Of a DNA stretch of 62,439 nt, positions 6,564-62,439 are shown in pieces; position 1 is the stretch's first letter; each line of letters begins with the position of its first letter. Below the pieces are notes generated by a model, which saw only the letters and a program-made list of their open reading frames with translations, had not been told where the DNA came from and ran no database searches. Source of the stretch: Gracilariopsis chorda (taxonomy: Eukaryota > Rhodophyta > Florideophyceae > Gracilariales > Gracilariaceae); contig NBIV01000354.1 in NCBI GenBank assembly GCA_003194525.1, positions 1 to 62,439 on the forward strand, in the 5' to 3' direction. A program made the translations under genes and the position numbers.

Positions 6564-6659
6564 GTCTTAAGAAGTTTTATTTCTGTCCAGGCTCGTATCA
6601 GTACGTCCTGTGAGTAAACTCCGGGCGTTGAGTACCCGAACTCTGCCTGTGATCGCGTA

Positions 6660-11953: not shown

Positions 11954-12013
11954 CGTATGAGTGTTAATGCCATTCTCAAACGGCTTGGTCTTGGACAGGA
12001 ACTCGAGGAGGAG

Positions 12014-12746: not shown

Positions 12747-12999
12747 TGATTGCACATGCCTTTTCGCGCTTTGCAAGTATACGGGAGGGTGTCTGGGTCG
12801 CACTAGAAACAGACCCTTGTGTCATTGTGGCACTAGATGACTCCTCCGAACTGGACATAACCACATTCCAGACACCTTTAATTCGACACGCGGCACGTAG
12901 ACGGTGTCGCCATAGGGTGTAATCTTCACCTCGCTTACCATGGAAGCGTGGGATCTTCACACCAGAGGTGGTTTCGGACTCAACTTCGGAGTCAGACAT
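12747..12999 (-). pseudogene. gag: Copia-B gag N-terminal fragment
   Basis: On the minus strand the ATG at 12999 starts MSDSEVESETTSGVKIPRFH, clearly related to Copia-A gag (MSDSEVETESTSGMKIPRFH) but a separate family. It includes the YTLWRHRLRAACRIKGVWN block and runs to KREKACA, where the 3' LTR of Copia-A interrupts it. Only about 84 residues remain; protease, integrase and RT of this element are not next to it. The target at the junction (ATGATTGC) is still readable in the other Copia-B gag near 32530. Confidence 0.85.
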
Positions 13000-34132: not shown

Positions 34133-34425
34133 TGTTGATGATAATGATAACTGAAGTTGGGCTTCGACAGAAGTCAAAGAAGAAGAATGAAACAATATCA
34201 AAAGTGAAGGTTCTCAGCCTTGGGGTGGTTTACTTGGAGAAGTCACATCTGCAACTTATATGGCATCACTAAAGTTCACTACAGCTACAAGAAAAACCCT
34301 AACCAATAAGTGCGGACAGCCATTACTACCAATCATATTCAAACATAACACAATCAGGGTTGCACAAACTGGTGACAGTTAACTACAACCCTGCATAACA
34401 TTATTCCAGCACATGCCAACGAACC
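34133..34425 (-). repeat. Copia-D 3' LTR, left part
   Basis: Starts TGTTGATGATAATG and follows the Copia-B LTR order (GTTGGGCTTCGACAG, AGAAAAACCCTA, CATAACACAAT) until the DNA transposon begins at 34426. It continues at 51624. Confidence 0.85.
34423..34425. repeat. Target site duplication ACC, left copy
   Basis: ACC immediately before CCCTA; the other copy is 51624-51626. Three-base duplications are typical of CACTA elements. The claim rests mainly on the LTR that becomes collinear when 34426-51626 is skipped. Confidence 0.8.
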
Positions 34426-34438
34426 CCCTAAAAGAAAT
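34426..34438 (+). repeat. Left terminal inverted repeat of copy 1
   Basis: CCCTAAAAGAAAT. A second inward motif TGAGTGCATT (34453-34462) also recurs inverted near the right end (51577-51586). Confidence 0.82.
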
Positions 34439-34554
34439 TTTGGATAGCAAAATGAGTGCATTGTGGACATTGGCAACCCACAAATCTGGCTTGGAAGTAG
34501 GGGTGAATTATTTCAAAAACCTGAGTTCAATTTGAGTGCAATTGGACTATGGGA

Positions 34555-35285
34555 CACTCCACGCGCACTCATCATGCGTTCAGGGGATTTTCCAAATGGG
34601 CACCCTTGGATGCCTCCAAAGCGCACTTTGAAAAACTTTACGCAGAATGCAATACATGGACACTCATATTTGCAGAACACTATGACATACGTATTGTCTA
34701 GGGCACCACCGTTTCGTCCAGGGCACTTCCTTAAGGACGTGCACCAGATACATCCAAGCGCACTCATACTACGCTTTTTCGTCTCGCTCTTCCACACTCC
34801 ACGCACACTCATCACGCCCTCATAACAAGCTCGAAATGAGCACCCTTGAATCCCATGAAAACGGGCAACGCTAAAACCGTTTCGCTGAATGCAGTCCATC
34901 GGCACTCACATTTACCGATACTCATCACATATACATGGTCGCTGACACCATATTCCCATCCAGAGCACTTCTCGGTCTGGCCGTGCGCCAGAGACATCCA
35001 AGCACACTCAAGTTTCCCCTTTCTCTCTCGACTCTCGTGCACACTCCATATACACTCATCGCGCCTTGAGAAGAAGCTCGAAATGAGCACCATTGAGATA
35101 CATTAAAGACGTAGCGATAAAACCACTTCGCAGAATGTAGTCCATCCACACTCCTAGTTACAGAAAGCCATCACTTACACATGGTTCTTGACAACACCGT
35201 CTAATCTCAAGCACTTCTGTACGGTCGCGCAGCATGTCCATCCAAGCGCTCTCAGGTACCTTTCTTAGTGTTCCTTCGCGTCTGA
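34555..35285 (+). repeat. Three diverged ~245-bp subterminal direct repeats
   Basis: Units start at 34555, 34795 and 35042, each with CACTCC followed by a [CG]CACTCATC motif. Each unit then shows, in the same order, GAGCACC or GGGCACCC, a GCAGAATG or GCTGAATGCAGTCCAT block, GAGCACTTC or GGGCACTTC, and CATCCAAGC[GA]C. The recurring GCACTC/GAGTGC words resemble subterminal transposase-binding arrays of CACTA elements. No gene here. Confidence 0.78.
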
Positions 35286-35753
35286 TCCTGCAAACATCCA
35301 GATGCATCGTTCGGACTTCTGACATCATGATTGTCCACGCCCGCTCAAGTTATTCTCCATTAATTTTCTCTTAGTTCATATTTCTAACAACCAAGATGCT
35401 CCAGTTAGAGCTCACCTCACAGCTCCAAGTGCACTTACGTAACCATGTATGATTCTGCTATCTTTGAGGATCTCATGCCGTTTTAGCCACTTTCCAAAGT
35501 CATATTCACATTCGCATCCATTAACACTCAGAACAGCCTTCTTCATTCTGCTCTGCATCCCCTACTTTCACCATGCTCTTTCAATACTTGGAACCAGTTT
35601 GACGTCACCTTCTTACTCAGTCCTGCTCCTGCACGCGCATTGGGTGTGACATAAAAGTGGTTTGGGCGTTTCCGCGCTGCATCACAAATGCACCATCTCG
35701 TACGCACGCAAAAGAAGAGCGGTGTTTCAGTTACTATGTAAACAGAAGGGATA
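35286..35753. other. Unassigned stretch between subterminal repeats and transposase end
   Basis: About 470 bp with no supported gene. It lies downstream of the transposase stop and probably holds its 3' untranslated region. Confidence 0.4.
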
Positions 35754-38700
35754 TCAGGTATGCCTGAAGGTTACGTTCTCACCCCTCATTCCTCGAAGAA
35801 CTTTCTGGGAGCCATTCAATGATTCCTGATCATTTCGAAGCAAGTTATCCGACAGTCTCCTTTCGTCAATAAAGTAGCATTGGTGCCGTCCCCGTGACTG
35901 TGAGCTTCCAGAAGGAACTACATGATCGACAACTGAAATCAATCGAGATATGATCGCAATATCTTCTACCGTCTTTAATCCAAATGCATCGACTGAGCGG
36001 CCTCTCTTGTACACTTGTCCTTGAGTGCCAGCTTCCAAACCAGAGACCCAATCAAGAAGTGCAACGTTGTATGATTGCTGCCAATGCTGCCATCTTTCTG
36101 AAAGGTTGGAGTCCACCTTGAAGTCAAAAAGCATCAAGAGACGTCCATAGTATACATCTACAGCTCTTCCATTCTCCATTTCGCAAGCAACATTCGAATT
36201 TTCGCGCCGTCGAGGAGCCATATTGTGCAAAGTGGCTGGAACTAGTTTAGTGGTGGCATTCTGGACCTTATTTTCACTGTAGAAGCAAAAACGCGATCTG
36301 AACCCTACTTCATGAACACTCTCCAGAACCTGAAGTGCCTGAGCGGATGGTAAACCATCGTACTTTCTGATTAGATAGCTTTTGAGGCAAGCTGAAAGTA
36401 TGTCGTCGAGGTTCGGATCTTCCCCCACAATGTATGGGTAGCATTGACCACGAAACTCATAGTCTCCAGTCATAGTTTGGTTCTCATCTGTTTCATGGGG
36501 GTCTCTTATGAGAAGCTTGTAAGCTTCAACGAACTTTGCGTTGTTGAACAAAGATGAGGAAGCGAGATTGCGGGCATTCATACGGCTCAAGACCCAGCCA
36601 ATGTATCTCTCCATCCAATATTGCGAGTAGTAAAGGGGGGGACTGCATTCTGCTACACACTCTGCAAGATGCAGGAGTAGGTGAAGAGTGTACTTGCACA
36701 TGTTCACACGGCCAACGTCTCCTCTAAAATAATACTGCTCAAAGTGTTCATAGAACCGAAGACATAACACATGAAGCTTCCCTACCTCAGCCTCGGTTAG
36801 TACTGTACGCCAGCAGATATCAACAACCTCCACAACGTCTCTCCATCCAGAGAGTAAAGCATCAGGAAGATATCCATCCAGAACAACCCGACTATAGGAA
36901 AGAATAAACTCTTTCACCTCAGCAGACTTCCATTCCGCAAAACGACTAAGTGGTCTCGGACAACAACCTAGTTTACTTGATACACCGTTTCTGTACTGTA
37001 CCAATTCTAAATCAATAGCACGAAGGGACATTTTGCTTATCGAGTAAAGTTCATCACGGCTGCTGATCCATGCACGGATGATGTTCTTACCAATGTTGTA
37101 GAAGAGATGCATTATGTCAATAGGAAAGGATCTGTATGGTACGATGTTTGGAAGGGCGAACAACAGACTTCCTTCGTTGATTCCTGTCTCAGTTTGGAGT
37201 TGTGCTTTCGGTTGCCCTCTCATCTGAGAAAGTTGGTAAATAGTTTCTCTGCTTTGACTTTCTGTGCGCAACGGAAGATTTGAAGGATCAAACACACGAC
37301 GATTACCTTCCGAGGTCCTGATATAGCTTGGGAAGTAGTAATGACGATGTGAAGCTGACCACACCTCAGGTACAACACAATACCTGCAGGGGAACTTTGC
37401 ATTGTGACCTTTGATACCTGATACTTTCTTCACAGCCGGAAGATCTCCGGTGAAGCACAACATATGCACCCTTACTCGTCTTCTCTTCCCATCGTAAAAC
37501 AGAATTTCTGTGCCCCTCCCGTCGTTCTCCAATTCCTTCAGCTCCTCGATCAGAGGACCAAGGAATGACTGAAGATCCGACGGCTCCGTCGGACCCGGTA
37601 CGAAAGTAAGAGGCATGACGTTTCGGACATGAAATCGTTCAGCGGGATGGAAGTTGCATATAATGGCTGCAATGGGCCAAATAGTGTGCGTTTGTTTGTC
37701 AAAGGCTTGAAAGCCGTCGTTGGAGACAGTAATAAATACGTCATACATCACCGCTTCAACTCCACCATACCTATTTGCTATTCTGCAGAACGAATCTGTA
37801 GAGAAAACGTCACACAGCCCACCATTGACCTCGTTAGGCGTCGAGTGAAAGTAATCATACATCCGTTTGCAAAGCGTTTTGTCACGTAAGATTGATTTCA
37901 GACGTCCACGGATAGTAAACCAAGATATAACAGAGGCCAATCGATCATCAGTTTTTGGCCGCATACTACCACAAACAGAACATTCTGTGAGGTCGTTTTT
38001 GTAGAAGCACATATGGCCTGGGCAAATTGGAATGTTGACCACTGCATCTTCAATTCCAGACTCACGACACATACGGGAGACAACGGTTTTCCAACACTTG
38101 TATGGAGAGTTGATGTTTCGGAGAATGTCGTTCATTACTACTTGAGTGACATTATGTTTGTAGAAAAGGTCAATCCATACCCTTTTTTCCTTTACCCATG
38201 ATGCGAAAATTGTCCTCACTGTCTCTCTTTCATCTTCTGTGCCGTGACAGTGTTCGTAAGACTCAAAGATAGACCGACCATGTTCAGATACATTCGTTTG
38301 GTCATCAACTAGGTCGAGGATGCTAGAAGCACTTCTGTCTGCGTCGGAATCGTTTCCATGTCCTATTGCGACGACTGACGGTGATCTACTCTCTATGGGC
38401 ATTAAATGATCGTGACTGAACTCACATTCTAGACGCAAACCACCCTCTGCCAGTTCTTTCTCTGGATCATCTTCGTGATCCAGTGCGATATCATCAAAAT
38501 GCACTTGTTTGCTGTTCACCGATTCGCAAAGATGACCACCAGAATCAATTCGTAGTTCAGAGTTTCTAGCTGTAGAGTCCTCTTCCGTTCTTGTCATCAA
38601 CGTATTTGTGTCAGAAATATCGGAACGGCAACGAGACGAATTCACGGTACCCACTCTGTTCGGAGTTTCCCCTTGAGGACAGTGAAGAGTGCTATCGCGT

Positions 38701-39257
38701 AAAGACTGATCTGCATCAGATGATACCCCAAATGGCAATGAATCAATTGCCATTGGCGGCCGAGCAGATGCCAATTCATTACATTCACCCGAAGGCTGGC
38801 TTTCCGCATCCTCGTAATTATCTTCTTCATTAGTAACAGCATGGGCTTGAGACTCTGCCTCTTGAAGATGTTCATGGTCGAGTACTTGTTCTCCAAAACT
38901 TAGATGCGAAGATCTAGTAATGACATTGCTTTGTGACCCTCCCTGACCTTGAAGAAGGCACTGAGACATTTCGTTGACGTTTTGTTGACTTTCTTCATTT
39001 GGTGTTTCAGTAGCAAGTCCTTCAGCTAAAGAGTTATGCAGTAATGCTTGAAAATGGGCTCTCACTGACATACTTTCAGTTTCACGAGGACCCCAAGGCA
39101 GATTTCCGCTCAATCCACGACGAAGACGATCTTCGTTTGCAGCTCTTCTATGTCTCAACATAGTATTTCGACTCACGGATTTTCCTTTTGGGTAGCAGAG
39201 ACAGTGATACTGAGGAAGACAGACATATTTAGATGTCATTCTAAACGTTAACGTCAC
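35754..39257 (-). CDS. tnp2-type (CACTA/EnSpm) transposase
   Basis: 1167 residues, uninterrupted. Residues 1-340 are low-complexity and acidic. A zinc-binding CX4CX8CX2C motif lies at C412-C429 (CPGHMC...CSVC). The tnp2 core follows: SNDGFQAF (Asp514), CFTGDLPAVKKVSGIKGHNAKFPCRYC-type block with Asp605 and C624/C627 (residues 601-627), and DIMHLFYNIGK (Asp714). A DUF4218-like region with WMERYIGWVLSRMNARN (about 881-897) comes next. These match the conserved order of the plant TNPD and fungal Plavaka transposases. It would cut and join the transposon ends in the nucleus. It faces away from the accessory ORF across a 0.3-0.4 kb shared promoter. It is the only large intact gene in the window, so the element may still be mobile. 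Confidence 0.88.
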   Translation of the reverse strand: MTLTFRMTSKYVCLPQYHCLCYPKGKSVSRNTMLRHRRAANEDRLRRGLSGNLPWGPRETESMSVRAHFQALLHNSLAEGLATETPNEESQQNVNEMSQCLLQGQGGSQSNVITRSSHLSFGEQVLDHEHLQEAESQAHAVTNEEDNYEDAESQPSGECNELASARPPMAIDSLPFGVSSDADQSLRDSTLHCPQGETPNRVGTVNSSRCRSDISDTNTLMTRTEEDSTARNSELRIDSGGHLCESVNSKQVHFDDIALDHEDDPEKELAEGGLRLECEFSHDHLMPIESRSPSVVAIGHGNDSDADRSASSILDLVDDQTNVSEHGRSIFESYEHCHGTEDERETVRTIFASWVKEKRVWIDLFYKHNVTQVVMNDILRNINSPYKCWKTVVSRMCRESGIEDAVVNIPICPGHMCFYKNDLTECSVCGSMRPKTDDRLASVISWFTIRGRLKSILRDKTLCKRMYDYFHSTPNEVNGGLCDVFSTDSFCRIANRYGGVEAVMYDVFITVSNDGFQAFDKQTHTIWPIAAIICNFHPAERFHVRNVMPLTFVPGPTEPSDLQSFLGPLIEELKELENDGRGTEILFYDGKRRRVRVHMLCFTGDLPAVKKVSGIKGHNAKFPCRYCVVPEVWSASHRHYYFPSYIRTSEGNRRVFDPSNLPLRTESQSRETIYQLSQMRGQPKAQLQTETGINEGSLLFALPNIVPYRSFPIDIMHLFYNIGKNIIRAWISSRDELYSISKMSLRAIDLELVQYRNGVSSKLGCCPRPLSRFAEWKSAEVKEFILSYSRVVLDGYLPDALLSGWRDVVEVVDICWRTVLTEAEVGKLHVLCLRFYEHFEQYYFRGDVGRVNMCKYTLHLLLHLAECVAECSPPLYYSQYWMERYIGWVLSRMNARNLASSSLFNNAKFVEAYKLLIRDPHETDENQTMTGDYEFRGQCYPYIVGEDPNLDDILSACLKSYLIRKYDGLPSAQALQVLESVHEVGFRSRFCFYSENKVQNATTKLVPATLHNMAPRRRENSNVACEMENGRAVDVYYGRLLMLFDFKVDSNLSERWQHWQQSYNVALLDWVSGLEAGTQGQVYKRGRSVDAFGLKTVEDIAIISRLISVVDHVVPSGSSQSRGRHQCYFIDERRLSDNLLRNDQESLNGSQKVLRGMRGENVTFRHT

Positions 39258-39660
39258 ACAAATGCAAGAGAATGACGCAAAAGCTCAACAGCATATCCAA
39301 AGACTTGAGAACAATGTGCCTATCCGCTGTATCAGCTGTCCCGTACGCTGTCGTGTAGAGATAGAGAGTACATTATCTTCATCACTGAGACAGTGAGCTT
39401 TCAGAAAAGGTTTGCCATTTTCGTTTCGGCAGTTCTGTTTGAATTGTTGTTTCTGGACCTTTTCCAATTTCGAATCATACTTGTATTGCCAACGTAAAAG
39501 ACAATACAAGAAAATAAAATGCATGACGCATTCTGAGGGTATCCGGTTCTCATAAGGCTTCTATGTGCCCTTCGCTGCTTCCGAACTTCGTTGTGAGCCC
39601 GAACATCTGGTCTTTCCTCGATCAAATATCCTGTTCCTCTGCAGCACAAAGAACACAGCA
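39258..39660. promoter_or_regulatory. Shared intergenic region between divergent transposon genes
   Basis: The transposase starts leftward at 39257 and the accessory ORF rightward at 39565 or 39661. No coding sequence is evident, so promoters for both must lie here. I see no clear TATA motif. Confidence 0.5.
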
Positions 39661-41097
39661 ATGGGGTCATCAATACCGAGTACAACTTTAGAGAGATTCC
39701 TACAGGTTACAAAAGAAGAAATTGTTCGCACATGGAAAGAGGATCTTACGAAGCTCAGTCGAAGATTAGAAGTTCTGGAGCCAACCTCAAGACTTCCGCC
39801 TATTCCAAGTCCTATGCGCGGAAAGGATTTTGTGAGGGAAGCTAACGTTTCATCATTGATGAGAGCGGCCATTGAGTATCACAATGCACTCATACCACCG
39901 GGGAAAGAGAGCTACATACAGTTTCCGGCTGGAGCTTCCGACAAGAAGCTCAACTCCGACGCCAAAGATGCCTTGGATATGATCATGATCGACAAGCTGG
40001 GCGAGAACTATGGCTCTCTTTCCTGGGCGACGGCTTCGAAGACAACACATTTTTCAGAATGTGAAGCTGTGATACAGACTGCAGCTGGATCAAGGGATTT
40101 CGTCGTTTTCAGACAGAGCAGTAACTTCTGGAGTATTCGGTGGTTAGCAGAACAGAAGATGAAGTCAAAGAGACGCCCCTCCAAGATGAGGGAACTAACA
40201 AGAGAGGTACAGAACACACTTAGACATCAACATGGAAACCTCGACGAGGACCGGCTGAATCGCAATCCAAATGATTCCCGTTCAGCAGTGAAAACGAGAA
40301 ATGCAGAAGGTGTTGCGCATCTGAGCTGCACATCTCCAGGTATTCATCATGGTAAAACAGACAACATTGAATGGGCAAAGAACAACCGTTCCCAACGAAA
40401 GACTCCCAAAGATGTAACTTCAAATTTTCTTGACATTACCAATTCAGGATTGAACGAAAGACGTGTTTGTGGTGAGAATAATCGTGACGCAGAAGTAGCT
40501 CCATCGCATAACGCAATCGTTCCCGCTTCAAACCTTTCCCATGTTAATTCAAACCCACGTACACCCGGTCCGAACGCGACAGTACAACCTTTCTCAGTTC
40601 TTCTACGGCTACGTATCAAGAGCCATAGAGCATCAGCAGCTCACAAATGCCTCGCACAGCCGGCCGATTTGCCAATAACTTACTCTTCTGCTGAACAACA
40701 TGCACAAATTGAAGAACAAAGTGCTACTGTTACAGCCCCATGTAGAGGGTATCGCAATCCACGTCTTACTCTTCGTGATAGTCACCTGAATGAAGGATCA
40801 AGTTTCAAAGTCGTCCGTCACAATCAGAAATCCATGAAACAGTCCATTCGGAAGGAAGGAAGAGGAACAGGAGTTAAGGACAGCTGGTCGACAAAACGTG
40901 GTACAGGGAGAGGTGGAAGCAGCAAACGCAGAGGGAAAGCAATGAAAACAGTTGTTAGCAACCGTGAGAGAGTAGGTTTAGGGGCTCAAAGAAAAACTAG
41001 AAGCATTGATAGGCCACCAAAGACTTGCCCATACATTCTCCTACAAGTCACTTCGTTAATTTCCATTCCATGGAATCCTTATCTGCATATGAAATAA
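39661..41097 (+). CDS. Accessory ORF of the transposon (TnpA-like position)
   Basis: 478 residues from MGSSIPSTTLERFL. An in-frame ATG at 39565 would add 32 cysteine-containing residues with less convincing composition. The N-terminal 170 residues are mixed and could fold (LERFLQVTKEEIVRTWKEDL, DALDMIMIDKLGENYGSLSW, FWSIRWLAEQ). The remainder is serine- and asparagine-rich and ends in a strongly basic tail (RGGSSKRRGKAMK). I do not recognise a family. Divergent pairing with the transposase and the basic C-terminus suggest a DNA-binding partner such as the TnpA proteins of plant CACTA elements; that is inference only. Confidence 0.65.
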   Translation: MGSSIPSTTLERFLQVTKEEIVRTWKEDLTKLSRRLEVLEPTSRLPPIPSPMRGKDFVREANVSSLMRAAIEYHNALIPPGKESYIQFPAGASDKKLNSDAKDALDMIMIDKLGENYGSLSWATASKTTHFSECEAVIQTAAGSRDFVVFRQSSNFWSIRWLAEQKMKSKRRPSKMRELTREVQNTLRHQHGNLDEDRLNRNPNDSRSAVKTRNAEGVAHLSCTSPGIHHGKTDNIEWAKNNRSQRKTPKDVTSNFLDITNSGLNERRVCGENNRDAEVAPSHNAIVPASNLSHVNSNPRTPGPNATVQPFSVLLRLRIKSHRASAAHKCLAQPADLPITYSSAEQHAQIEEQSATVTAPCRGYRNPRLTLRDSHLNEGSSFKVVRHNQKSMKQSIRKEGRGTGVKDSWSTKRGTGRGGSSKRRGKAMKTVVSNRERVGLGAQRKTRSIDRPPKTCPYILLQVTSLISIPWNPYLHMK

Positions 41098-41455
41098 AAT
41101 GTTGGGGTACCATGCAGTTTTGAGCGAAGAGTACCAGTTCGTGTCTCAGGGTGTACTTGATATGCATATAACGATACTTCATGTCATTTGTGGGAGAATG
41201 CACGAGAACAAGGGCCTTTTCTCTTGTAAAGAAACTTACGTCATGATCTGGCCCTAACCCGGAAGAGTTTCTTACCGAACGCAACGCAGCCGCAAAGTTG
41301 TCCGGATTGTGTCCATCGTTCGTGGGAAAATTGTAGAGCAGCCTTGTTGCGAGTCCGTGGCGTTCTATCGCGTTCTGCTCCACTCCACGCAGCTCAGTTT
41401 CTTGCATTGTCGCAAGGTGCAAAAGATAGTTCACTGTGACTTTCGTTGGTTCCAT
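41048..41455 (-). CDS. Small unknown ORF, 3' overlapping the accessory ORF
   Basis: 135 residues from MEPTKVTVNYLLHLATMQ to WKLTK, converging on and overlapping the 3' end of the accessory ORF by 50 bp. Composition is ordinary, with no membrane segment or signal peptide, and I recognise no domain. It could be a third transposon gene or a chance frame, since both strands are open over only a short distance. The region corresponding to it in copy 2 lies outside the window, so conservation cannot be checked here. Confidence 0.35.
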   Translation of the reverse strand: MEPTKVTVNYLLHLATMQETELRGVEQNAIERHGLATRLLYNFPTNDGHNPDNFAAALRSVRNSSGLGPDHDVSFFTREKALVLVHSPTNDMKYRYMHIKYTLRHELVLFAQNCMVPQHFISYADKDSMEWKLTK

Positions 41456-41904
41456 GTTGTGAAGTGTTGTTCTCGACGTAACTCATCCACTCTCGTACCA
41501 TTATGCAGTCAAACGGCACGGTCCAATGAAGGCGTCTAAGAGCCTCAACAACTACTTTGAGTTGCGAAGCGAGACTCGTACAGAGTACAGGAGGCTACGG
41601 TGGTTGCCAATAATACTCTTCCATGCAGTGAACAACGACAGAAAGATGTTGGTAAATTTTCTGTGGAAAATACCGTCTCAGAAAATTTGAGGGTGACGAG
41701 AATCCTCGAATATTATTGGTTGATTGTGGGGACGAGGTCATGAAATTTCGCTCAAGAAGCACTCTCTCTGACCAGCACCGAAATCTTCAGCAGTCTCGTC
41801 ATCTGTAATAATCTTTGAAGCCGCGTATACAATTAACTTGATTTCTTGAAGCGCCCTTTTCTCCCTGTTTTTCTTCTTTCTCACCAAAGGCGGAGTAATC
41901 AGCA
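41456..41904. other. No gene seen
   Basis: About 450 bp of AT-richer sequence between two small ORFs; nothing recognisable. Confidence 0.4.
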
Positions 41905-42276
41905 ATGCGGACGTATTATGGTGTCGAGAGTTTCAGAAACAAGTGTCGCGAGTCAAATGGATTAATTGGTTCCAGTCCGAGTCACTTTTGTCTGGCGTGC
42001 AAGCATCCAATTCATAGTACATGTGGAACTGTGCCCGAGCCATCAATTTCTCGTAGATATGCCTCTGGTTGCCCAGGTGAAGGTTCTGGCGCTCAAAAGG
42101 TTTGTAGTGAATGTCACCTCAAACCCTGTACAATCAATAAATCGGTGAATCGAAATGAAGCTTCTCATACTTATCTGGTTATGGATGATGTGCTTCCAAA
42201 GCATGTGCAAAGCTTCACATACAGTGTCAGTCAAGATCAACCCGTTAGGGGTCTTTCAATCACAGCGTTCATATAG
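41905..42276 (+). CDS. Small ORF with paired cysteine/histidine motifs
   Basis: 123 residues. Two zinc-binding-like clusters are visible: CLACKHPIHSTC and CSECHLKPC, about 35 residues apart, in an otherwise unremarkable sequence. The pattern resembles a small zinc finger of the kind found in transposon-encoded accessory proteins, but I cannot assign a family. Its position inside the transposon, between the accessory ORF and a transposase relic, leaves open that it is a piece of a decayed gene. No in-frame continuation beyond 42276 is evident. Confidence 0.35.
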   Translation: MRTYYGVESFRNKCRESNGLIGSSPSHFCLACKHPIHSTCGTVPEPSISRRYASGCPGEGSGAQKVCSECHLKPCTINKSVNRNEASHTYLVMDDVLPKHVQSFTYSVSQDQPVRGLSITAFI

Positions 42277-42497
42277 CTTGCACCACGAATTCAAACCCGT
42301 TTATGGAGGCGGAAATAATCAACAGGCAGAGTCTGATACTACCCGGAATCAAGCACCGCTCATTCTGTGCAGATCATGATCTACAAATTTCTCGAAAGCA
42401 AAGAAATGCCGCAAACGCTCGTCAGTATAGAGCGCGGCATTAGAAAGCAATCAATCAGAGGGCAAGAACACGATACAGCAAGGACAAAACTCAAGTT

Positions 42498-43131
42498 TCA
42501 ACACAAGCTTCCGAGCTCAGCAGCAACGGATCTCTTCCCAAAAACTCGAAAACAACTGAACACTCCGGAGATGCAGCGCATACAAGCATCGAATCTAAAC
42601 CGTGTTTTCTTAGTGTTCGTAACGATATGAACGCCAATGAAGAGAATGCTAGTGATGGCCAATACCATGTTCATACTGTGACTGACGTCTACGAAGTTAG
42701 ACGGTCGTTTCATATATTTAAACGCAGCTGCTCCATCACTCCAAGCCGTGGCGCCGTTTTTCGAGTACAGGTTGACAGCACAGGTGATAGAGTGTTGCTG
42801 CGGAGGTCTTTGGATGGCGGCAAAAACCAAGTTGACTTTGCCATCAAACACTCTATAAGTGGATTCATATCGAACCAAGTATGGTTCTCTTCGCTTCTCC
42901 GCAGCCCACCGTGCATCGATTTTTGGGCCCGTGCTGTTGAGAATAAAGCATCCTGTCGGTGATGGAGTACTCGTCAATGTAGCTGACCACAATTTCATTT
43001 GGGTCATTTTCCTTCTTGGTTAGATTATTGTAGATAGACCTCGGTGTTGTCCCGTGGTAGAAGCGGAACACCCCATGGTAACCAAGCTTGGAATTATTGC
43101 AACGCACGCCACTATGACCAAGCCTCTTCAT
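42498..43131 (-). pseudogene. Possible Merlin/IS1595-like DDE transposase relic
   Basis: Two overlapping minus-strand frames. The upstream frame (43131-42865) has VVSYIDEYSI, like the vEIDE box of ISXO2/Merlin transposases. The downstream frame (43007-42498) has AWSDGAAAFKYM, VSHSMN and GVHIVTNTKKT in the order of the SDxWxAY, VNHSxN and GVHTNTIE boxes of that family. A frameshift near 42950 joins them. If right, it is a small DNA transposon that landed inside the giant one and decayed. The match is by eye and short, so an alternative unknown origin remains possible. Confidence 0.4.
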
Positions 43132-44505
43132 GTGGGACGCGGAAGGGGCGTTGCATGTAGCGGTTCCAGCTCAGATGCTCTATAGTCTGACGGCAAAGGG
43201 ACTAATTCTGACTGTATGCAAATCTCCACTTTCCAGAAATGTCATCAGAAGAAGAGGCGGTGGTTGAATACGAGAAGAGAGGTTATTGACGTCAGCACAC
43301 TTTGTGCCCATGCCAACGTGCACACATAAGCCCACAGCGCCCAAGTAAGTGTCAGAGTTCGCATGATGCTTCCCAATAGGGCAGTGTACACAAGGAAACG
43401 AATTTGCTGTGATGACGCCAATAATGAAGCTGCTGAGAAATGTTGTCGGAAGCAGCTGTGATATATTCGGTGCAGCTAGATATCAGGGAGGAAGAAAGCG
43501 GAATATTGGCAAAAGAATGTCGATTGCAGTGACTTGTAACCAAGGCAGGGAACGTAAGACATGCCAAGCACCCGTTCATGACGATGTATATGCACTAACA
43601 CAACTTAGAGCACGTATTGTATCTTCATCACAGCAGAGAAAAACGAGGTAGTCTTGTAACGTAATGAAGTTGTTGCGATCGAAACACGACGTTGGCTATC
43701 TTCGTTCACCGACAATTTCTCACCGAGAAGCTTTCGGTCACAAGACCTGTACACTTAGAAGCGTACGCTGGCGGCTCCCAGCGAACGGTAGCGGACGGCG
43801 TGGAACGACCGTTTCCGCGAGTGTTAAGTGGCCGTTGGATGGCGACAGTTGCACATGGTCGATGACGTGCTTGTTTTCTCCTGGAAAGTAGCCTTGCCAA
43901 TGAGTTTCTAGTCCAAAAATCATCTTGATGATTGCCAAAAAGCCTCTTCTGACAAAACTCATGACACGTACTGGATCTTACGCAATGCTTCTCTCAATTG
44001 GCACTTTGCTCTCTCGGAGAGAGATTCTCTCGTGTGGCTCACTGACGTGCTTGCGTTCGACAGACAGGTGCTGTACCGAAGTAACAAGGGCGATTGCCAA
44101 CCCTTAAAGCCGTATGCCACGGCCATTATTCACAACTGTCACCAAGTAACCTTGCTAGAGGCTCGTGGCATGCCAGGGGAGCACGCAACGGATTCCTTGA
44201 ACAGATGTTGTCGCGGGTGCTCTTGCCATGATTAAAGAAGCTTCTCAAAACCTTTCATTTGTTCATGATTGTTTTTACCAAAACAAGGTGATCCGTTACA
44301 CCTACCATCCCACACAAGCGGACTGTCAACCAGAAATTCTTTGGACCTTGTGCTCGGAGGGAAGCACGGATGAATCAATACTCCGAATCGACTCATGTGA
44401 AAACCCGGAACGATTGCCTCGTGCGTACCAAGTTCTTTTCATCAGCCGATTGCGATCCAATTGGAAGGGGGGTGGAACAAGTTGTGCAACTTTGACAACA
44501 TCTTC
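43132..44505. other. No supported gene
   Basis: About 1.4 kb between the transposase relic and the PNPase relic. Only short frames (75 residues or fewer) with no recognisable similarity. The last part upstream of 44506 also opens the PNPase relic of copy 2 (62179-62439), so it belongs to the captured segment or its flank. Confidence 0.45.
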
Positions 44506-46740
44506 ATGTGGGGTCGCACCACTGCAGCGTGGGCCGCAAGCGCATCGGTGCAGCTCTCATCCCCACAATCGCCACTCTAGTCCAGCCTTTCTCTCTCTAC
44601 AAACCGTTTGGCACGCCTGGCTCCTTCATCAACGGTCCTCCGCTGTGCCTACGCTACTATTCTCGCCACTGCTGCCCCCAACTCCTACCTTACGATTGAC
44701 TTCCGCTCAAAAGCTGCAGCTGTCGGAGTTTTTCCCCTCACATCGAGCCGCAAAGAGCAACAACCAGCGCTTCGGGAAACGATCACAGCTCGACTGACTG
44801 ATCGTTCATTACGCCCTGCAACGCCAGGTGCACATGTATGCGTAAACGTTTTTGGCACCCGCCGCACTTCGGATCCATCTTTGGATGCACTTGCTGTCAT
44901 TGCTGCCTCGGCTGCTACTGGAGGTCTAACAAGCTGGAGTGGGCCCATTGCAGCTGCGCGCGTTTCGTACGTCGATGGTTGCTTCGTTCCGTTCCCAGCT
45001 GAGCCTGTTGCGTCAAAAGCAGAGCTTTCTACGTTTGTTGCCATTAATGAAAGACAACGAGTGCTCTGTCTTTCGATCCAGGCAGCTAATGCACCGGATT
45101 CTCTTGTGAACGATGCGGTAGCAGAGGCCATAGAAGCTGCTGTTCCACTTGTTCAGCTGCAGAAGGATTATCATCAAATGCTGTTAGATCTTCGAGAGCG
45201 AGAAGGCTTGTCCTCTTTTCCAAGATACCATCCACAACAGCAACAGCGGTCGGAAGCCTTGCCAGTCCCTGACGAAGCAATCACTGATGAAATACACCAC
45301 CACGTGATTGAGGAATACAACAAAGCTTTCGTTGAGTGCCAAGATCATCCCGGAAAAGCGCACCGAGCACATATCTTGACAAGCGCCCAGCAGCAGGTAC
45401 TCGATCAGTACAAAACATATAGTCTCTCTCATGTTTCTCGTATCATAGATACGGCGGCACGTGAAGCATTTCGATCCAGGATCTTTAATGATCGGTGTCG
45501 CCTTGATGGGCGTGTACCTTCTCAAGTACGCCCACTGAGAGCAGAAACTTCTGTATTGCCAGGTGATGTGCACGGCTCTGCTTTATGTGAGCGAGGCGAT
45601 ACGCAAGTGCTCGCTCATGCAACTATTGGCCTTCTCGCTCGGGTGGTAAAGGTGGAAGAATACATTGACGGAGCAGACCAGAGATCATTTTTTTTTCACT
45701 ACAGCTTTCCTTCTTACGCCACCGGAGAGCCCGGCGGTCCGTAAACGTTTTCGAGCAGGCGAGAAGTCGGCCATGGAGCGCTTGCTGAGGATGCGATTGC
45801 TCCTGTCTTGGAGTCCTGTCCGTATGCCCTTCGAGTATCAGCGGAGGTCTTAGCCTCTGATGGGAGTAGTTCTATGGCGGCAGTCTGTGCTGATTCCATG
45901 GCACTTCGCGACGCTGGAGCTCCTATTACGCAAGATGTTGCTGGGGTTGCTATGGGGCTGGTAACAGACGGCGATGAGGAAATTATTCTTACGGACATTC
46001 TGGGCGTGGAGGATCACTATGGTGAAATGGATATGAAAGTCAAAGGCACAAGGGAGGGTATAGCTGCATGTCAACTGTATACCAAGCATCCAGAGGGACT
46101 CTCTGAGCAAACTCTAAAGGAAGCTTCATCTCAGGCAAGAAAGGCACATGAGCATATTTTGGATCACATGCAGGGTCAGCAAGCGCAGTGTATGCCATAT
46201 CATGCACCAAGAGTTGCCGAAGTACAGGTAGAGAGAAATGGTGTGCGAACTTTGCTTAGGGACCGGGGTGCAATTTTGAGAGATATAGAAGAACGAACAG
46301 TCTCTAAGCTTTGGTACGACCCCAGGAAACAGGTGGTCTCTGTTGAGGCTCCAAACGAAGAAGCTGAACAGCGGGCTTGTAAACCAGTATCCGAAGCTGT
46401 TGGCGATTTGGAACTCGGCGTAAAGGTTGACCCAAATGTAGAAGAAGCTAGGCAGTCTTTTGCCGTGGTCTAAACTGATAATGGTGTCGAAGGAGTTTTG
46501 CATGATTCAAAAATGATGGTGAACTCAGTCTTTGGAGGTGACCGCTTTCCGGACGCACGACGAGATGTCTCAAAACGCGATCGATTACAAGTGGTCGTGC
46601 TTGAAGCAGACCAGGAGCGCAGAATCCTTCGATTTGGACTGACCAAACGAACTGAGCGCGCTACTCAGTTGGAGAATGGGATAGATGATGCTCTTGCAGC
46701 GATTGCGGTATCCGGGGACTCTCAACAAGGCAAAAGATGA
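44506..46740 (+). pseudogene. PNP: Polynucleotide phosphorylase relic (cargo, copy 1)
   Basis: A single frame of 745 codons, usual PNPase size, broken only by in-frame stops: TAG 44578-44580, TAA 45742-45744, TAA 46471-46473. The N-terminus MWGRTTAAWAASAS with a serine-rich stretch looks like an organelle transit peptide. RNase PH domain 1 follows (RETITARLTDRSLRP, ASAATGG, GPIAAARVSY). RNase PH domain 2 has FNDRCRLDGR, VLPGDVHGSALCERGDTQ, DGSSSMAAVC, and ILGVEDHYGEMDMKV with Glu where bacterial PNPase has one of the Asp residues. The KH region and an S1 domain end follow the last stop. PNPase degrades RNA phosphorolytically in organelles. The gene lies wholly inside the transposon. Confidence 0.9.
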
Positions 46741-48268
46741 GAACTGGAATTATATACTTTGTTTGAAAATGTGATCCAAACTGCGAACGCTTTGCACAGG
46801 CATCGAAGCTACTGTGGCAGGTTGTTCTTTAATCGTAAACATGATACTGTGTTTGTACGAAATCAAGCCCCATAGGTGTCATTTCTAAGCGTTACGTCTG
46901 CCCTCAACATCTCTACGACTTCCGTTGGAGGAAGGACTGTTTGGCTTTTTACTGCTACCCGTCTTACTGGATCTGTCCTTGTTCTCTTCTGCAATGGGGT
47001 GCCCCGTTGCCCAAGGATTTATCCATCGTGCCTAAAGATTTCCTCTACACTTGTCATGATAACGAATGTCCTACTCACCTGTCGCCATATATTGGCCTTC
47101 TAAATTGTGAGAAGCGAATGTTGATACTCTACCTCTTTGACTCGGCCACCACTTCATAATGCTTTTTCCCATTCGCTCTCATAATCATTTTCCTGCTATA
47201 GGCTAACTTCACTCTTGCAATTCGTCAGAATCTAATCGGACGGGAAACTCCTTTGCGGGTTTTTGGTTTCGATGAACAGCGCGTCGTCATTTTTTTCTCG
47301 CAGTGTCAATGTGTCTAAGAGCGAGGAGAGCAATTTTGTCTTCGCCTTTGGGTACCGACACAATCGGCCCGAGAACGGACGAGACCATTTGTTCCTCAAG
47401 TTTGATATTCGGACAGAGAAACAGTCGACAATGAAAACGTTAAGGAATGATGGTTCAGCGAAGCAAAATACGTTGCAATACGGCTTCACTTAGGACCTTC
47501 TCTCTCAGTTCTCGCTTTATGCTCCGTTGTATTGGAGTTTTTGATTCCACGTCAAGTAGCTGAGGACCAGAGCTTTGATAAGAACGCCTTCGAATTTACC
47601 TGCGCTCACAAAGGAACTAACAAGAAGTCCACATTTTGCAGTCCAAATGTGCTCGTCATTACAGAGCGTTGGAAAACGTTCAAGATTAAAGATGGGCATC
47701 GATACCTAGCGCAATGTAGACGCTCTTTCAAATGATAGCGACTGCAAAGCGGTAACTTCTGTTGCAGCTCAAGACTGAAGTCACACATACATCGAAAGAA
47801 ATGGAGCCCCAAACATTGTCATCAATCCATGATGGATTACTAAACGTTCTTCCTTGACGAGCCCGACATTGTACGTCGCTCCAATAATGACAAAATCGGA
47901 CATTGTGCCGCTCATATCACTCCTTGGCACTTTTCAGGGTTACAATCTGGTGAATGAGACTTCCACGGCTTTCACGCAAGGTGGTGTAGGGTAACATTCA
48001 AACACCGATGTCACAAAATGGTGAGTACACATTGTGCGTACGTACGTACAGATGATCCCTAAAGCGATTCCCCGAACCGACGTTTTCCCTGCAAAGAACC
48101 ACAAATGCTCGAGCTCTTGATATTCTCAGTCTCCAGCTTCTTTTGTGGATCTTTGAACAAGTTAGTAATGATTCAGTTTCATACGAACCAACGAAATGGC
48201 ATTTGATGGATTGTTTGTAGTAGCGAAGTTGCATTCTTAAGGCAACTTCTGTCCTTCAAGAAAAGACT
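46741..48268. other. Spacer between the two cargo relics (copy 1)
   Basis: About 1.5 kb also present in copy 2 (58413-59941). It contains the 118-bp repeat at 47121-47238 and several frames retained in both copies: a 133-residue frame in copy 2 (59923-59522, broken here at 46876-47159), and frames at 47263-47493 and 47532-47735. None is recognised. Conservation may only reflect recent common origin of the two copies. Confidence 0.5.
47121..47238 (+). repeat. 118-bp direct repeat, left copy (copy 1)
   Basis: Begins TTGATACTCTACCTCTTTGA and ends CAGAATCTAATCG. It matches 50945-51062 at roughly 88% by eye, without gaps in length. The two repeats bracket the eIF2B-epsilon segment. Confidence 0.85.
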
Positions 48269-50667
48269 TTAAGAAGTACAGTTGTTCCTGTATTCTTCAT
48301 CCTTCTCGTCTTCATCATCAGAACTCTCTAACCACACCAGAAAATCAGCCATTGTGTTCAGAAGCGAACCATCTTTATGTCCTGCTTCAACCTCGCGTCG
48401 TTCGTTAGCAGCCCAGTTGAGAATGCCACTGCCCTCCAGAAAGTCCTTATCAAACATGGCCTTGAACATGTACATCAACAAAGTTCCATTTGGTCCTAAC
48501 ATCCGTGCCATATGCGTCGCAGTTTGCGTACTATGCTCGGTGTCTTCATATGTGAATGATTCAATCAAGGATTTGAACCTATCAAGGCCATCAACGACAC
48601 GTCCCTAAAGTTCTGCCACAACTTCCTCCGATTTCTCCACTGCTTGAGCAAGTCCAATGTAAATTGCAGCCAGCGTCTCTGCAAAACAACTATGATACGC
48701 AAGCTTTAACGAGTTTACCTCCAGGGCTGTATTCTCCTCGTCAATATCTTCCTCAAAGGTACGACTGATTGTTTCAAACGCCTCCCTCACAAACTCCTCC
48801 ATTCTATTGTCATCGTTACTGGCATTGGCCTCTTTTTGAAGATTAACAGTATGCATGCCAGCCACAATTTCATCAATATCACCATTTGTACCTCTCTCAT
48901 CTCGTTCTAGGACTCTGTCGGCGGCATCTACGTACTCGTCTTCTTCATCCTCGTCCTCTTCTAGTTCGTGTCGTTCATCGCTTTTGTAATTCGGAGTTAC
49001 CGGGTGCTCGATAAAGAATGGATCCAGCGCAACAGCGTAGGAATAGTCAACCAGCCGTCCGTCACATACATTGCTCACATCACCTTCGCTCCATTCGTGA
49101 CTCAAATCAACCATATGTTTGAGTTCGGCGTCTAAGACCTCAGGAGCATCCGCTTCATGATCCATGACATCGGCGGCATTATCATTGTCAGGGGCTGCTC
49201 CATCGTTCTCCTCGCCAAATAAAACGCCCTCACCATCCGCGTCCTCTTCCTCATCGTCTTCGTGCTCTCCGTCTTCGCCTCCGCACTCCTCCACCTCATC
49301 TTCCTTAATGTGTTCTTCTTCGTTGTGCCCTTCCTCTCCGTCTTTGGCATCCTCTTGTTCCTTCACGTCCTCTTGTCCATGCTCAATCTCGTGCCCTTTC
49401 TCAACCTCGTGTCCTTCCCTGACCTCATGTCCTTCCTCATCAGTGTCTTGTCTTGTGGTTTGTCCTCATCATGCGCAAAAAAAGAATAGCTTTGTATGGT
49501 ACTGCATGCAGGACCAACACGTAACCCGCTTTTAAAATAGCAATTGTCGGGAATGATGGAGTCCATAAGGACCTTGCGCTCTTTCTCTACAATACTTCGA
49601 CGGACATAAGAACGGTCGGCAATCTCAGTACCATCCATTACAATACTGCGTACAATAGAGACGTCTTTGCCAATCTTGACGTTGTTACAGATACCGCTAT
49701 CAAAGATATGAGTGCCCATGTCAATAGTGAAGTTGTCTTCTACTGCGCAATTCTCAACGACGTATGCCGTCTGGAGTTGATGAGCTTGGCCGTTCTTAGC
49801 GTGATCATTGAAAACCTGCTCTTCATACGGTTGCATCCAGCGGTTAAGCACATCCAGCGTCGACTGTGCGAAAGATGCCAGCGAAGTAATACGCGACGCA
49901 TATTCTCGCTTCGCAGAATCGACAAAATGTGCATACATTCGGTTTCCAAACACTTCAGCTTCACCGCCGTCAAGCTTCTCCTTAATGTACGAACGCACTT
50001 GATCATAGTAAAAATTCTCTCTAAACTCTAGTAACAACTCTGGTGAACACACTTCAAGACCGCAGTCCAGCACATTCGACACGAAGTCGAATTGAGCGCC
50101 GCTTTGGAGCGCAGTCTTGTGCTCGAGAACATCGATGGATATGGCGGTTCGGTTGTTGGTGGTGTACTTTACCAACGTGCCAGTTCATCTCTCGACAACA
50201 GCAATGAGTCCCTTCCACGCCGTTCCAGCGCCGCGGCGAAACACCGTTGTGAGAAGCCAATTACGATCTTCATTGCGTGGCTTCTTATGCTGATCAACCA
50301 GCTTAGATACATCTACATTGAACACAGATCCAGCAGTGACCAATACGAAGTCATCGGTGGGGCGAAGATCGTCGCGACGGTCAAGATCTCTCAATGCATC
50401 GTCTTCGCCGTTCCACGATGAGGACGAAAGAGTGCTGACATGGAGCCGTTGCAACGGATAGAAGTAGTGATGAGACACGGGCTTTGAGGATAGGATGACG
50501 GCTTCCTTGACTCCGGATCGTGCGAGTACGGCGAGCTGCCATGTGAGAATTGACGTGTTGAGTACCTTCTTACCTGACGCGAAGTTGGGTGCTGCCTCGG
50601 CATTGCAGGAGTCAGCGAAGATAACGGCCTTCAACGGCTCGTCAGAGTTGTGGTTTGCAGACGTCAT
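48269..50667 (-). pseudogene. EIF2B5: eIF2B-epsilon relic (cargo, copy 1)
   Basis: Catalytic epsilon subunit of the guanine nucleotide exchange factor for eIF2, cytosolic. From MTSANHNSDEPLKAVIFADS the order is: nucleotidyltransferase-like domain, left-handed beta-helix hexapeptides (VENCAVEDNFTIDMGTHIFDS, SGICNNVKIG), a long acidic linker, and a C-terminal W2-type helical domain ending in the acidic WLESSDDEDEKDEE. Lesions: in-frame TGA at 50185-50187, a frameshift in the acidic linker near 49446, and in-frame TAG at 48605-48607. All three are also present in copy 2. No introns are visible, so the capture came from an intronless gene or a cDNA. Confidence 0.9.
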
Positions 50668-50944
50668 GTTGAAATGTTACGAGAACAATTGATCCAAAAA
50701 CCGGCAACGAAGTTTGAAATGAATGGGAAGCAAAACTGAAGCGCGGAAGGAAAAGAGGAACGATCTCAGTTGACCGGCACGAACAAGCAAAGCTCATGCC
50801 ATACTCGCCAGTGACAAGCGGCGTCCAACGCAAAAACGCACACGCACGGACCTGACGGACCTCAAACAGGCGCTAGACGCAGCCAGACTGTGGCACAACT
50901 GGGAGCGGGACGGCGGTGCGTCAGGCGCTTCCAAGTTTAGAATG

Positions 50945-51062
50945 GTGATACTCTACCTCTTTGACTCGGCCACTTCGTCATAATGCTTTTTCCCATGCGC
51001 TGTCAAGATCATTTTCCTCCTATACGCTAACTGCACTCTTGCAATTCTTCAGAATGTAATCG
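50945..51062 (+). repeat. 118-bp direct repeat, right copy (copy 1)
   Basis: Begins GTGATACTCTACCTCTTTGA and ends CAGAATGTAATCG. It lies 0.56 kb from the right transposon end. Confidence 0.85.
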
Positions 51063-51509
51063 AGGCAGAAGCAAAGCATTATCTCGTGACTGAAATCTAC
51101 GCGTGCTCAATGGAACAGCGCGACCACATCAGCGCTTTTCGGCCTTGGACACGCGGTGGTTGCCGCTCACGTGTCAAGTATCACAGTCATGATGAATCCA
51201 TCGGTGGGAAGAACGTTAAAGCGGGCTGGGCGTCAGCTTCGTCGTGATGCATTGCGCAACGTAGTTACCCAGTTCTTACACATACCAATTTTCTTAACTG
51301 TGAACATCGCGACCGACATTCACATGCGGTACTATGGCGCATTCTTAAGCAAAAGCGCATTTGGAAGCACGGGGATGTGTATAGTGCATTTGGAAGGCGA
51401 AAGGAGATCAAGTGTGTGCGCCGAGTTGCGACAGTTTTCATACCTTGACTCCTTCATGGAGCTGGTCTCCATTTGCATTCCGATTGAGCATGAAATGCTG
51501 ACGACAATC

Positions 51510-51532
51510 CTGTGCACCCCCAGGGTGCACAG
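51510..51532. repeat. Perfect hairpin near right end of copy 1
   Basis: Arms CTGTGCACCC (51510-51519) and GGGTGCACAG (51523-51532) with a 3-base loop. The loop is CCA here and its complement TGG when read in copy 2, so it is the same hairpin. Confidence 0.8.
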
Positions 51533-51610
51533 CCATTTGCACTCCACTTGAATTCACAGTAGCCAAAATTTGTCAAAATGCACTCACGGCACCCTCAGAA
51601 AATTGAAAAT

Positions 51611-51623
51611 ATTTCTTGTAGGG
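51611..51623 (-). repeat. Right terminal inverted repeat of copy 1
   Basis: ATTTCTTGTAGGG; on the minus strand CCCTACAAGAAAT, identical to the start of copy 2. Confidence 0.85.
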
Positions 51624-52118
51624 ACCACGGTAAGTGAAACAACCATGACAACAATATGCCAGCATATCACAGCCCTGTATAATGACTTACTTGCGTCATC
51701 ATCACCATGAAGATGCACAAAGTCGCATGACACTGTACCCATATCGATAACCTAAGTCCATTGCGTGCGTTGCACGTGCTGGCACACACAGTCACACGTC
51801 TGCCGCAACGTGATGTCTCTGTAAACCATTGTAGCCACACAGAATCTCATGTACGTTGTCCATTCGTATTATGCCAAGTGGCCCATTCTGTGCCTACGAC
51901 CCATACAATGAATACCACTTGTAAACCACGTAATGCATATGGGGAAACGCAGTACCCAATCATAAACCCGTTTCACGTTGGGTTCGAGCACACGCGCATA
52001 TGCGCTTTTGCAAAGGAGGTGCTCAAAAAGGCCCATCCTTATGTACAGCTTTGTTTCCAAGTAGTCTACCATGATGTCCTAGGGCTATCAGGCACTCGAC
52101 CACGTGCCAACATCAACA
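51624..52118 (-). repeat. Copia-D 3' LTR, right part (with ACC duplication)
   Basis: Continues the LTR from 34425 and is collinear with 33740-34110 of the Copia-B LTR. It includes GCGCATATGCGC and the CCAAT box and ends at CAACA (52114-52118). The two parts total about 785 bp, a normal LTR length here. Confidence 0.88.
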
Positions 52119-55056: not shown

Positions 55057-55069
55057 CCCTACAAGAAAT
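55057..55069 (+). repeat. Terminal inverted repeat of copy 2
   Basis: CCCTACAAGAAAT. The preceding GCA is the candidate left target duplication. Confidence 0.85.
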
Positions 55070-55147
55070 ATGTTCAATTTTCTGAGGGTGCCGTGAGAGC
55101 ATTTTGACAAATTTAGGCTACTGTGAATTCAAGTGGAGTGCAAATGG

Positions 55148-55170
55148 CTGTGCACCCTGGGGGTGCACAG
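55148..55170. repeat. Perfect hairpin near the end of copy 2
   Basis: CTGTGCACCC / GGGTGCACAG, loop TGG; counterpart of 51510-51532. Confidence 0.8.
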
Positions 55171-55617
55171 GATTGTCGTCAGCATTTCATGCTCAATCGG
55201 AATGCAAATGGAGACCAGCTCCATGAAGAAGTCAAGGTATGAAAACTGTCGCAACTCGGCGCACACATTTGATCTCCTTTCGCCTTCCAAATGCACTATA
55301 CACATCCTCGTGCTTCCAAATGCGCTTTTGCTTAAGAATGCGCCATAGTACCGCATGTGAATGTCGGTCGCGATGTTCACAGTTAAGAAGATTGGTATGT
55401 TTACGAACTGGGTAACTACGTTGCGCAATGCATCACGACGAAGCTGACGCCCAGCCCGCTTTAACCTTCTTCCCACCGATGGAGTCATCATGACTGTGAT
55501 ACTTGACAGGTGAGCGGCAACCACCGTGTGTCAAAGGCCGAAAAGCGCTGATGTGGTCGCGCTGTTCCATTGAGCACGCGTAGGTTTCAGTCACGAGATA
55601 ATGCTTTGCTTCTGCCT

Positions 55618-55735
55618 CGATTACATTCTGAAGAACTGCAAGAGTGCAGTTAGCGTATAGGAGGAAAATGATCTTGACAGCGCATGGGAAAAAGCATTAT
55701 CACGTAGTGGCCGAGTCAAAGAGGTAGAGTATCAC
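55618..55735 (-). repeat. 118-bp direct repeat, outer copy (copy 2)
   Basis: Counterpart of 50945-51062; the partner is 59443-59560. Confidence 0.83.
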
Positions 55736-56012
55736 CATTCTAAATTTGGAAGCGCCTGACGCACCGCCGTCCCGCTCCCAATTGTGCCACAGTCTGGCTG
55801 CGTCTAGCGCCTGTTTGAGGTCCGTCAGGTCCGTGTGTGTGCGTTTTTGCGTTGGATGCCACTTGTCGCTGGCGAGTATGGCATGAGTTTTGCTTGTTCG
55901 TGCCGGTCAACTGAGATCGTTCCTCTTTTCCTTCCGCGCTTCAGTTTTGCTTCCCATTCATTTCAAACTTCGTTGCCGGTTTTCGGATCAATTGTTCTTG
56001 TAACATTTCAAC

Positions 56013-62178: not shown

Positions 62179-62439
62179 GAAGATGTTGTCAAAGTTGCAC
62201 AACTTGTTCCACCCCCCTTCCAATTGGATCGCAATCGGCTGATGAAAAGAACTTGGTACGCACGAGGCAATCGTTCCGGGTTTTCACATGAGTCTAGTCG
62301 GAGTATTGATTCATCCGTGCCTCCTCCGAGCACAAGGTCCAAAGGATTTCTGGTTGACAGTCCGCTTGTGTGGGATGGTAGGCGTAACGGATCACCTTGT
62401 TTTGGGTAAAAACAATCATGAACAAATGAAAGGTTTTGA
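62179..62439. other. Upstream flank of PNPase relic, to window end
   Basis: Collinear with 44240-44505 of copy 1. No separate gene seen. Confidence 0.5.

Follow-up and report, generated by a model that had tools for sequence, protein, structure and literature searches.

How two housekeeping genes came to lie inside a DNA transposon, and from whose chromosome they were taken, is the question raised by a 62,439-bp stretch of the red alga Gracilariopsis chorda. This stretch, hereafter the window, is the whole of contig C354, and labels such as C7, C60 and C224 likewise denote contigs of the G. chorda assembly, which was searched over 91.3 Mb and is a draft of 1081 contigs. Positions 34426–51623 of the window are a CACTA-type element of 17,198 bp that carries, beside its own genes, near-full-length pseudogenes of PNPase and eIF2B-epsilon. 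Our preferred reading, with a probability of roughly 0.64, is that the element captured this cargo in a donor of the Gracilaria lineage and that both arrived together in G. chorda by horizontal transfer. A transposon thus appears to have carried a chromosome segment of one seaweed into the genome of another.

Affinity of the cargo genes

The PNPase part of the cargo matched the Pfam family RNase_PH (E 2.5e-13), and the eIF2B-epsilon part matched LbH_EIF2B (E 1.2e-13) at 51.4 bits, just below the curated cut-off of 54. Cargo gene 1, the PNPase pseudogene, lies at 44506–46734 on the forward strand (tblastn with the Agarophyton chilense protein P0007). Of the 746 residues of P0007, it covers 1–745 in the window and 1–746 in a second complete copy on C60, in a single frame with three and two stops, respectively. 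Cargo gene 2, the eIF2B-epsilon pseudogene, lies at 48329–50667 on the reverse strand (tblastn with the Gracilaria domingensis protein P0043, together with the LbH_EIF2B match) and covers residues 1–756 of P0043 (768 aa). Stops interrupt it, and in both the window and C60 copies the frame also changes. The description of near-full-length gene copies in an earlier note on this DNA was therefore accurate. Two public G. chorda proteins named eIF2B-epsilon, P0045 (C60) and P0063 (this window), were predicted from this decaying cargo and should be used with caution.

The cargo genes were closer to proteins of other genera than to those of the host. Over residues 1–403, the window eIF2B-epsilon shared 89.1% identity with G. 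domingensis, 80.1% with A. chilense and 69.8% with the native gene (the last over residues 6–402); for the window PNPase, identity was 74.2% with A. chilense and 64.7% with the native gene (tblastn). Trees were built from 17 of 33 database hits plus three cargo rows for eIF2B-epsilon, with P0045 and P0063 left out as cargo models, and from 14 of 34 hits, three cargo rows and a lone PNPase piece on C152 for PNPase. The native eIF2B-epsilon, whose frame breaks at 462 aa, was compared over its N-terminal part. Groupings of cargo with native genes were fixed before the trees were seen; the tests that gave p values of 0.0007, 0.021 and 0.0015 in the approximately unbiased test (p-AU) were named afterwards. 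In the eIF2B-epsilon tree, the cargo formed a sister pair with G. domingensis (100/98), A. chilense branched next (100/99), and grouping of the cargo with the native gene and that gene's nearest relative, P0041, was rejected (log-likelihood difference 75.5, p-AU 0.00014). In the PNPase tree, the cargo and the C152 piece grouped with A. chilense (98/96); the cargo with the native gene was rejected (p-AU 0.005), the cargo plus the C152 piece with the native gene less strongly (p-AU 0.0175), and A. chilense with the native gene gave p-AU 0.021.

Between cargo and native genes, the proportions of differing synonymous (pS) and nonsynonymous (pN) sites were 0.79 and 0.22 for PNPase and 0.745 and 0.166 for eIF2B-epsilon. 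Because synonymous sites are saturated while pN is low, the two lines must have parted long ago and evolved mostly under constraint. Judged by these sequence comparisons, both cargo genes have the affinity of Gracilaria and Agarophyton and not that of the host, and the cargo is very probably foreign to G. chorda. The earlier note had attributed it to the host's own genes. Capture from these genes followed by decay would fit the presence of the same pair, in the same order, in the host, but is hardly credible: saturated pS (0.75–0.79 against pN of 0.17–0.22) contrasts with element copies that are only 1.7–1.9% apart, and the trees reject grouping with the host genes. Hidden paralogy, in which an ancient duplicate pair was kept in Gracilariopsis until its capture and then lost, would also predict saturated synonymous sites. 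We consider it improbable, since in its tree the cargo eIF2B-epsilon falls between G. domingensis and A. chilense rather than outside both; the arrangement expected from one ancient duplication, with these two species together and the cargo excluded, was rejected (p-AU 0.0007), so that extra duplications and losses would be required.

The cargo also preserves a chromosomal neighbourhood. Genome searches located the native PNPase at C7:123040–124170 (reverse strand) and the native eIF2B-epsilon at C7:119210–119932 (forward strand); the genes extend over 122041–124278 and 118721 to ~120940, respectively, and are convergent and ~1.1 kb apart. The two cargo genes have the same convergent order. 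The earlier note had called the two genes unrelated; they are instead neighbours at the host's own locus, which argues for capture of one segment, and two separate captures were rejected. For A. chilense, both genes are recorded on a contig of 61,695 bp, and five further pairs likewise lay on equal-sized contigs, so that the neighbourhood looks old in red algae, as far as contig size alone can tell. The intergenic segment (46735–48328) belongs to the same cargo, with all six genome matches to 46740–48300 lying in element copies. The element holds both genes with the DNA between them, and both genes point to the same relatives, so that a single sequence links the transfer to its vehicle and to the donor group. 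The native eIF2B-epsilon model (L047:1012–2400, on C7) stops at 462 aa within an acidic repeat and resumes in a different frame, probably through an error of annotation or assembly.

Element genes, insertion sites and copies

The element is bounded by the inverted ends CCCTA(A/C)AAGAAAT, namely CCCTAAAAGAAAT at 34426–34438 (forward strand) and CCCTACAAGAAAT at 51611–51623 (reverse strand, read from 51623 to 51611), and is flanked by target-site duplications of ACC at 34423–34425 and 51624–51626. CCCTA ends are counted as CACTA-type ends, and CACTA (EnSpm) elements follow a rule of 3-bp target-site duplication. The exact 13-mer end (A or C at base 6) occurred ten times in the genome against five times for its reversed control; the ends alone are therefore weak evidence, and the copies carry the case. 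A 3-bp duplication was found at four of five candidate end pairs (ACC in the window, GGA on C60, ATT on C156 and CAA on C6, the last flanking a 408-bp element), while the flanks of the fifth (C91, 169636 with 156096) were unequal. Contig C224 (~12896–12898) provides an empty site for the window insertion, a copia-type sequence without the element and with a single ACC (243 of 274 bases identical in the alignment, with 72 extra bases in C224 to the right of the junction), and on C295 the empty counterpart of the C60 insertion holds GGA once. The window flank gave a copia-type RVT_2 match in Pfam, and the C60 flank was read as a retroelement by eye from its open reading frames (ORFs).

Both flanks consist of repetitive sequence that recurs on many contigs (1253 and 1572 candidates at first look, 40 scored per search), and the copies are therefore regarded as part of this genome and not of a contaminant. 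Contamination of the assembly with Gracilaria DNA gains something from the draft state of the genome; it is nevertheless very improbable, given copies embedded in such repeats, empty sites on other contigs, and genome searches that found no intact PNPase/eIF2B-epsilon locus of the foreign type and only the C152 piece outside elements.

The second complete copy, C60:303168–320369, has the same cargo, GGA on both sides and one substitution in its left end (CCCTG); the left end seen in the window recurs in C91 and C224. Window positions 34435–51623 and C60 303186–320369 were 98.0% identical over 17,191 columns (blast), with 332 differing sites (1.93%). The window itself holds a second, inverted copy at 55057–62439 (reverse strand), comprising the right-hand 7.4 kb and cut by the contig end, 98.1% identical to 44245–51623 (self-blast) and 3.4 kb from the first. 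It adjoins another copia-type element, the copia matches ending at 55056, and contains relics of eIF2B-epsilon (56013–58352, forward strand, six stops) and PNPase (59945–62178, reverse strand, five pieces in different frames, one stop). A partial copy at C224:1–7702, cut by the contig start, was 97.9% identical to 34426–42131. The element thus stands in at least four places, with 3-bp duplications shown for two. The genome search with the element's ends suggested by the earlier note therefore yielded further copies, duplications and empty sites for the window and C60 insertions, and the same internal content in C60, and the CACTA-type structure with defined inverted ends and ACC duplication that it had described in an alga was confirmed.

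Contig C91 matched window positions 34425–39280 only and C190 matched 35078–39280 only; the stretches read (C91:140001–180000 and C190:125001–145000) yielded no right end for either. At C91:159624–169636 and C190:132169–142365, the part of the element with the transposase runs as far as window position 39280 and is there joined to other DNA. The two loci have part of their outer flank in common (C91 171043–172212 and C190 131005–132171, 96.9%) and showed no right end in the stretches read, which suggests a broken copy that was duplicated; the idea of a second cargo subfamily was dropped on the same grounds. The earlier note had held that a transposase always found without the cargo-side end would speak against its interpretation; C91 and C190 go some way in that direction but look broken, and C60 is complete. 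Beside the C91 and C190 copies lies a tyrosine-recombinase-like ORF with a weak match to phrog_216 (E 0.0035–0.0054) and no Pfam match; the C190 ORF had no PDB match.

The transposase ORF (35754–39257, reverse strand, 1167 aa) matched PF02992 (Transposase_21; E 7.3e-12, 45.4 bits against a cut-off of 28.6), by which the element is predicted to encode its own tnp2-type transposase. Its frame is unbroken in the window, has one or two stops in C91, C190 and C224, and is split between two matches in C60. Among the 40 of 143 genome candidates that were scored, identity was 95–97% within the element's own copies and at most 60% in short stretches, or at most 54% over >400 residues, for other relatives (the older relatives read were those on C1, C58, C116 and C156). 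This drop in identity suits a recent arrival followed by a small burst. A protein search returned five relatives, the best with 60% identity over residues 380–1000. An accessory gene, ORF2 (39565–41097, forward strand, 510 aa), had no Pfam or PHROGs match, and ~460 of its bases recur at ~71% DNA identity in a sister family on C156 and C116, in the same place relative to the transposase. CACTA elements also have a second, TnpA-like protein that binds subterminal repeats, a role for which ORF2 would be a candidate. The full tnp2 transposase and accessory ORF recognised in the earlier note are both borne out.

Other differences between copies were of similar size (window copy 1 against copy 2, 1.76%; window against C224, 1.72%; window against C91, 1.85%). 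Between the window and C60, the cargo showed 18 synonymous and 70 nonsynonymous changes, with ratios of 1.7, 1.05 and 0.7 in three segments, in line with little constraint as judged from these counts. The corresponding ratios between window copies 1 and 2 were 0.95, 0.22 and 1.32. One stop in each cargo gene is common to all three copies read, which indicates that decay began before the copies parted.

Proposed route of the cargo into G. chorda

Under the horizontal reading, a CACTA-type cut-and-paste transposon would have taken up, in one event, a segment with the adjacent convergent genes for PNPase and eIF2B-epsilon. The capture would have taken place in a Gracilaria-lineage alga that was closer to G. 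domingensis than to A. chilense. Element and cargo would then have entered G. chorda horizontally and spread to at least four places, where the cargo genes would be decaying passengers. We infer three of these points, namely that capture preceded transfer, the foreign origin of the element itself, and how it passed between species; the phylogenetic conflict with the host is that of the cargo genes, and the transposase tree does not single out a nearest relative. Neighbouring CACTA copies with complementary terminal deletions have been proposed to form a hybrid element that captures DNA (PMC13317346). The two inverted window copies, 3.4 kb apart, show how closely insertions can lie, without thereby demonstrating a capture mechanism. 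As for contact, the Gracilariaceae include parasitic red algae that transform the cells of their hosts and are able to live on hosts not closely related to them (PMC4018324), and it is a matter of speculation that such parasites would offer an opportunity for DNA to pass between algae.

The main rival holds that foreign DNA came first: Gracilaria chromosomal DNA would have entered by another route, such as cell fusion or a parasite nucleus, and would later have been captured by a resident CACTA element. Three observations speak for it, namely the separate PNPase piece of the same affinity on C152, with no element sequence in the 12 kb read; the sister CACTA family, which bears an acetyl-CoA carboxylase (ACC) piece about equally distant from its native gene; and the related transposases resident in G. 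chorda, among them one to which the tree gives a place no more distant than that of any outside protein. We nevertheless judge this order of events unlikely, though worth serious attention, since beyond the recent copies no transposase relative exceeded 60% among the candidates scored, and the genome searches yielded no intact locus of the foreign type, with the C152 piece alone standing outside elements.

Several further points weigh against joint horizontal arrival. The Gracilaria comparison was made with proteins, and the element itself is known here from G. chorda contigs. A single Gracilaria/Agarophyton PNPase sequence was found, and the A. chilense synteny is read from equal contig sizes only. 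In the transposase tree, the resident G. chorda sequence on C116 is as near (path 1.01) as the outside protein P0001 (1.02), whose placement had support of only 59/0 and 61/35, and the tree does not settle the element's origin. The C152 piece, of similar affinity and outside any element seen, fits foreign DNA entering in another way. Finally, eIF2B-epsilon residues 1–403 differ between window copies 1 and 2 by nine synonymous and seven nonsynonymous changes, a ratio of 0.22 that does not look neutral, albeit on small counts; and the transposase ratio among copies was 0.48–0.72, hence the contrast with the cargo is modest.

The C152 piece and the sister family also raise the possibility of repeated transfer. 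The former (C152:162505–163672, L037) is a lone N-terminal PNPase piece with 76% DNA identity to the cargo, and no element ends, transposase or element sequence were found in the 12 kb read around it. It grouped with the cargo (97/94), and its grouping with the native gene was rejected (p-AU 0.0015). Its pS of 0.44 and pN of 0.13 against the cargo indicate that the two diverged as genes under constraint and, if transfer was repeated, that this piece came from another donor. The sister family is represented by a complete 10.9-kb relative at C156:136638–147565, with ends CCCTAAAAGAAAT and CCCTAATAGAAAT and a duplication of ATT, and by C116 (118500–134300), which is 90% alike over two matched stretches and has a 6.2-kb insertion. 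Both carry a broken biotin-carboxylase part of ACC (Biotin_carb_N, CPSase_L_D2 and Biotin_carb_C), with PDB matches to eukaryotic ACC and 70–72% DNA identity to the native gene on C14. Against this native gene, pS and pN were 0.757 and 0.142 for C156 and 0.767 and 0.157 for C116; between the C156 and C116 copies, they were 0.110 and 0.082. The ACC cargo is thus possibly foreign too. That nuclear DNA of Gracilaria reached G. chorda repeatedly, carried by CACTA elements loaded with genes (counting the element, the C152 piece and the ACC cargo of an unplaced donor), is a tentative proposal that we place somewhat below even odds. If true, it would imply a standing transposon-borne channel for whole genes between genera of multicellular algae.

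Known systems and minor features

The passage of nuclear genes between complex eukaryotes is poorly documented. Fungal ToxhAT and Starship elements are vehicles of gene transfer between eukaryote species (PMC6737239 and PMC11623301), and the present element resembles them in this role. It differs in that those are other kinds of transposon, in fungal hosts and with cargo tied to adaptation, whereas its own cargo is apparently inert and decaying. Pack elements mostly carry fragments of genes from their own host. In plants, CACTA elements are known to capture genes (PMC13317346), and plant Pack-CACTA and Pack-TYPE elements (PMC8903248 and PMC13317346) likewise have CACTA ends around captured host gene DNA. 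Pack-TYPE elements are described there as non-autonomous, unlike the present element, which encodes a 1167-aa transposase and holds two nearly complete genes of another genus. Among red algae, En/Spm families of 16–20 kb with four to five ORFs are known from Chondrus crispus (Kojima et al. 2013, cited in PMC6431247). They share with our element the host group, the CACTA type, the length and the presence of several ORFs; foreign host genes are not mentioned in the passage that cites them. The earlier note's view that such an element looks undescribed does not hold for its size, as large CACTA elements were already known in a red alga. At the level of titles and abstract beginnings, and with few subscription papers covered, the literature showed neither this element nor any other CACTA element that both encodes a transposase and holds two nearly complete genes from a different genus.

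Within the element, three subterminal direct repeats of ~240 bp, 66–78% alike, lie at 34547–35257 (forward strand; repeat search, family D3, and self-blast). The stretch at 41098–44505, without an assigned gene, holds the left limit of the captured segment somewhere, and all four of its genome matches were in element copies. A 123-bp repeat on the forward strand lies on either side of the cargo eIF2B-epsilon, in the cargo intergenic region (47116–47238) and upstream of the gene (50940–51062, 89%); its genome matches (six of six candidates scored) were inside element copies only, and it is perhaps a repeat of the donor. The 408-bp element at C6:193836–194243, with CCATA/CCCTA ends of like kind and a CAA duplication, is likely a non-autonomous derivative. 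Outside the CACTA copies, among nested copia-type elements at window positions 1–12746, two direct stretches of 6.1 kb (1–6098 and 6645–12746) are 99.5% identical.

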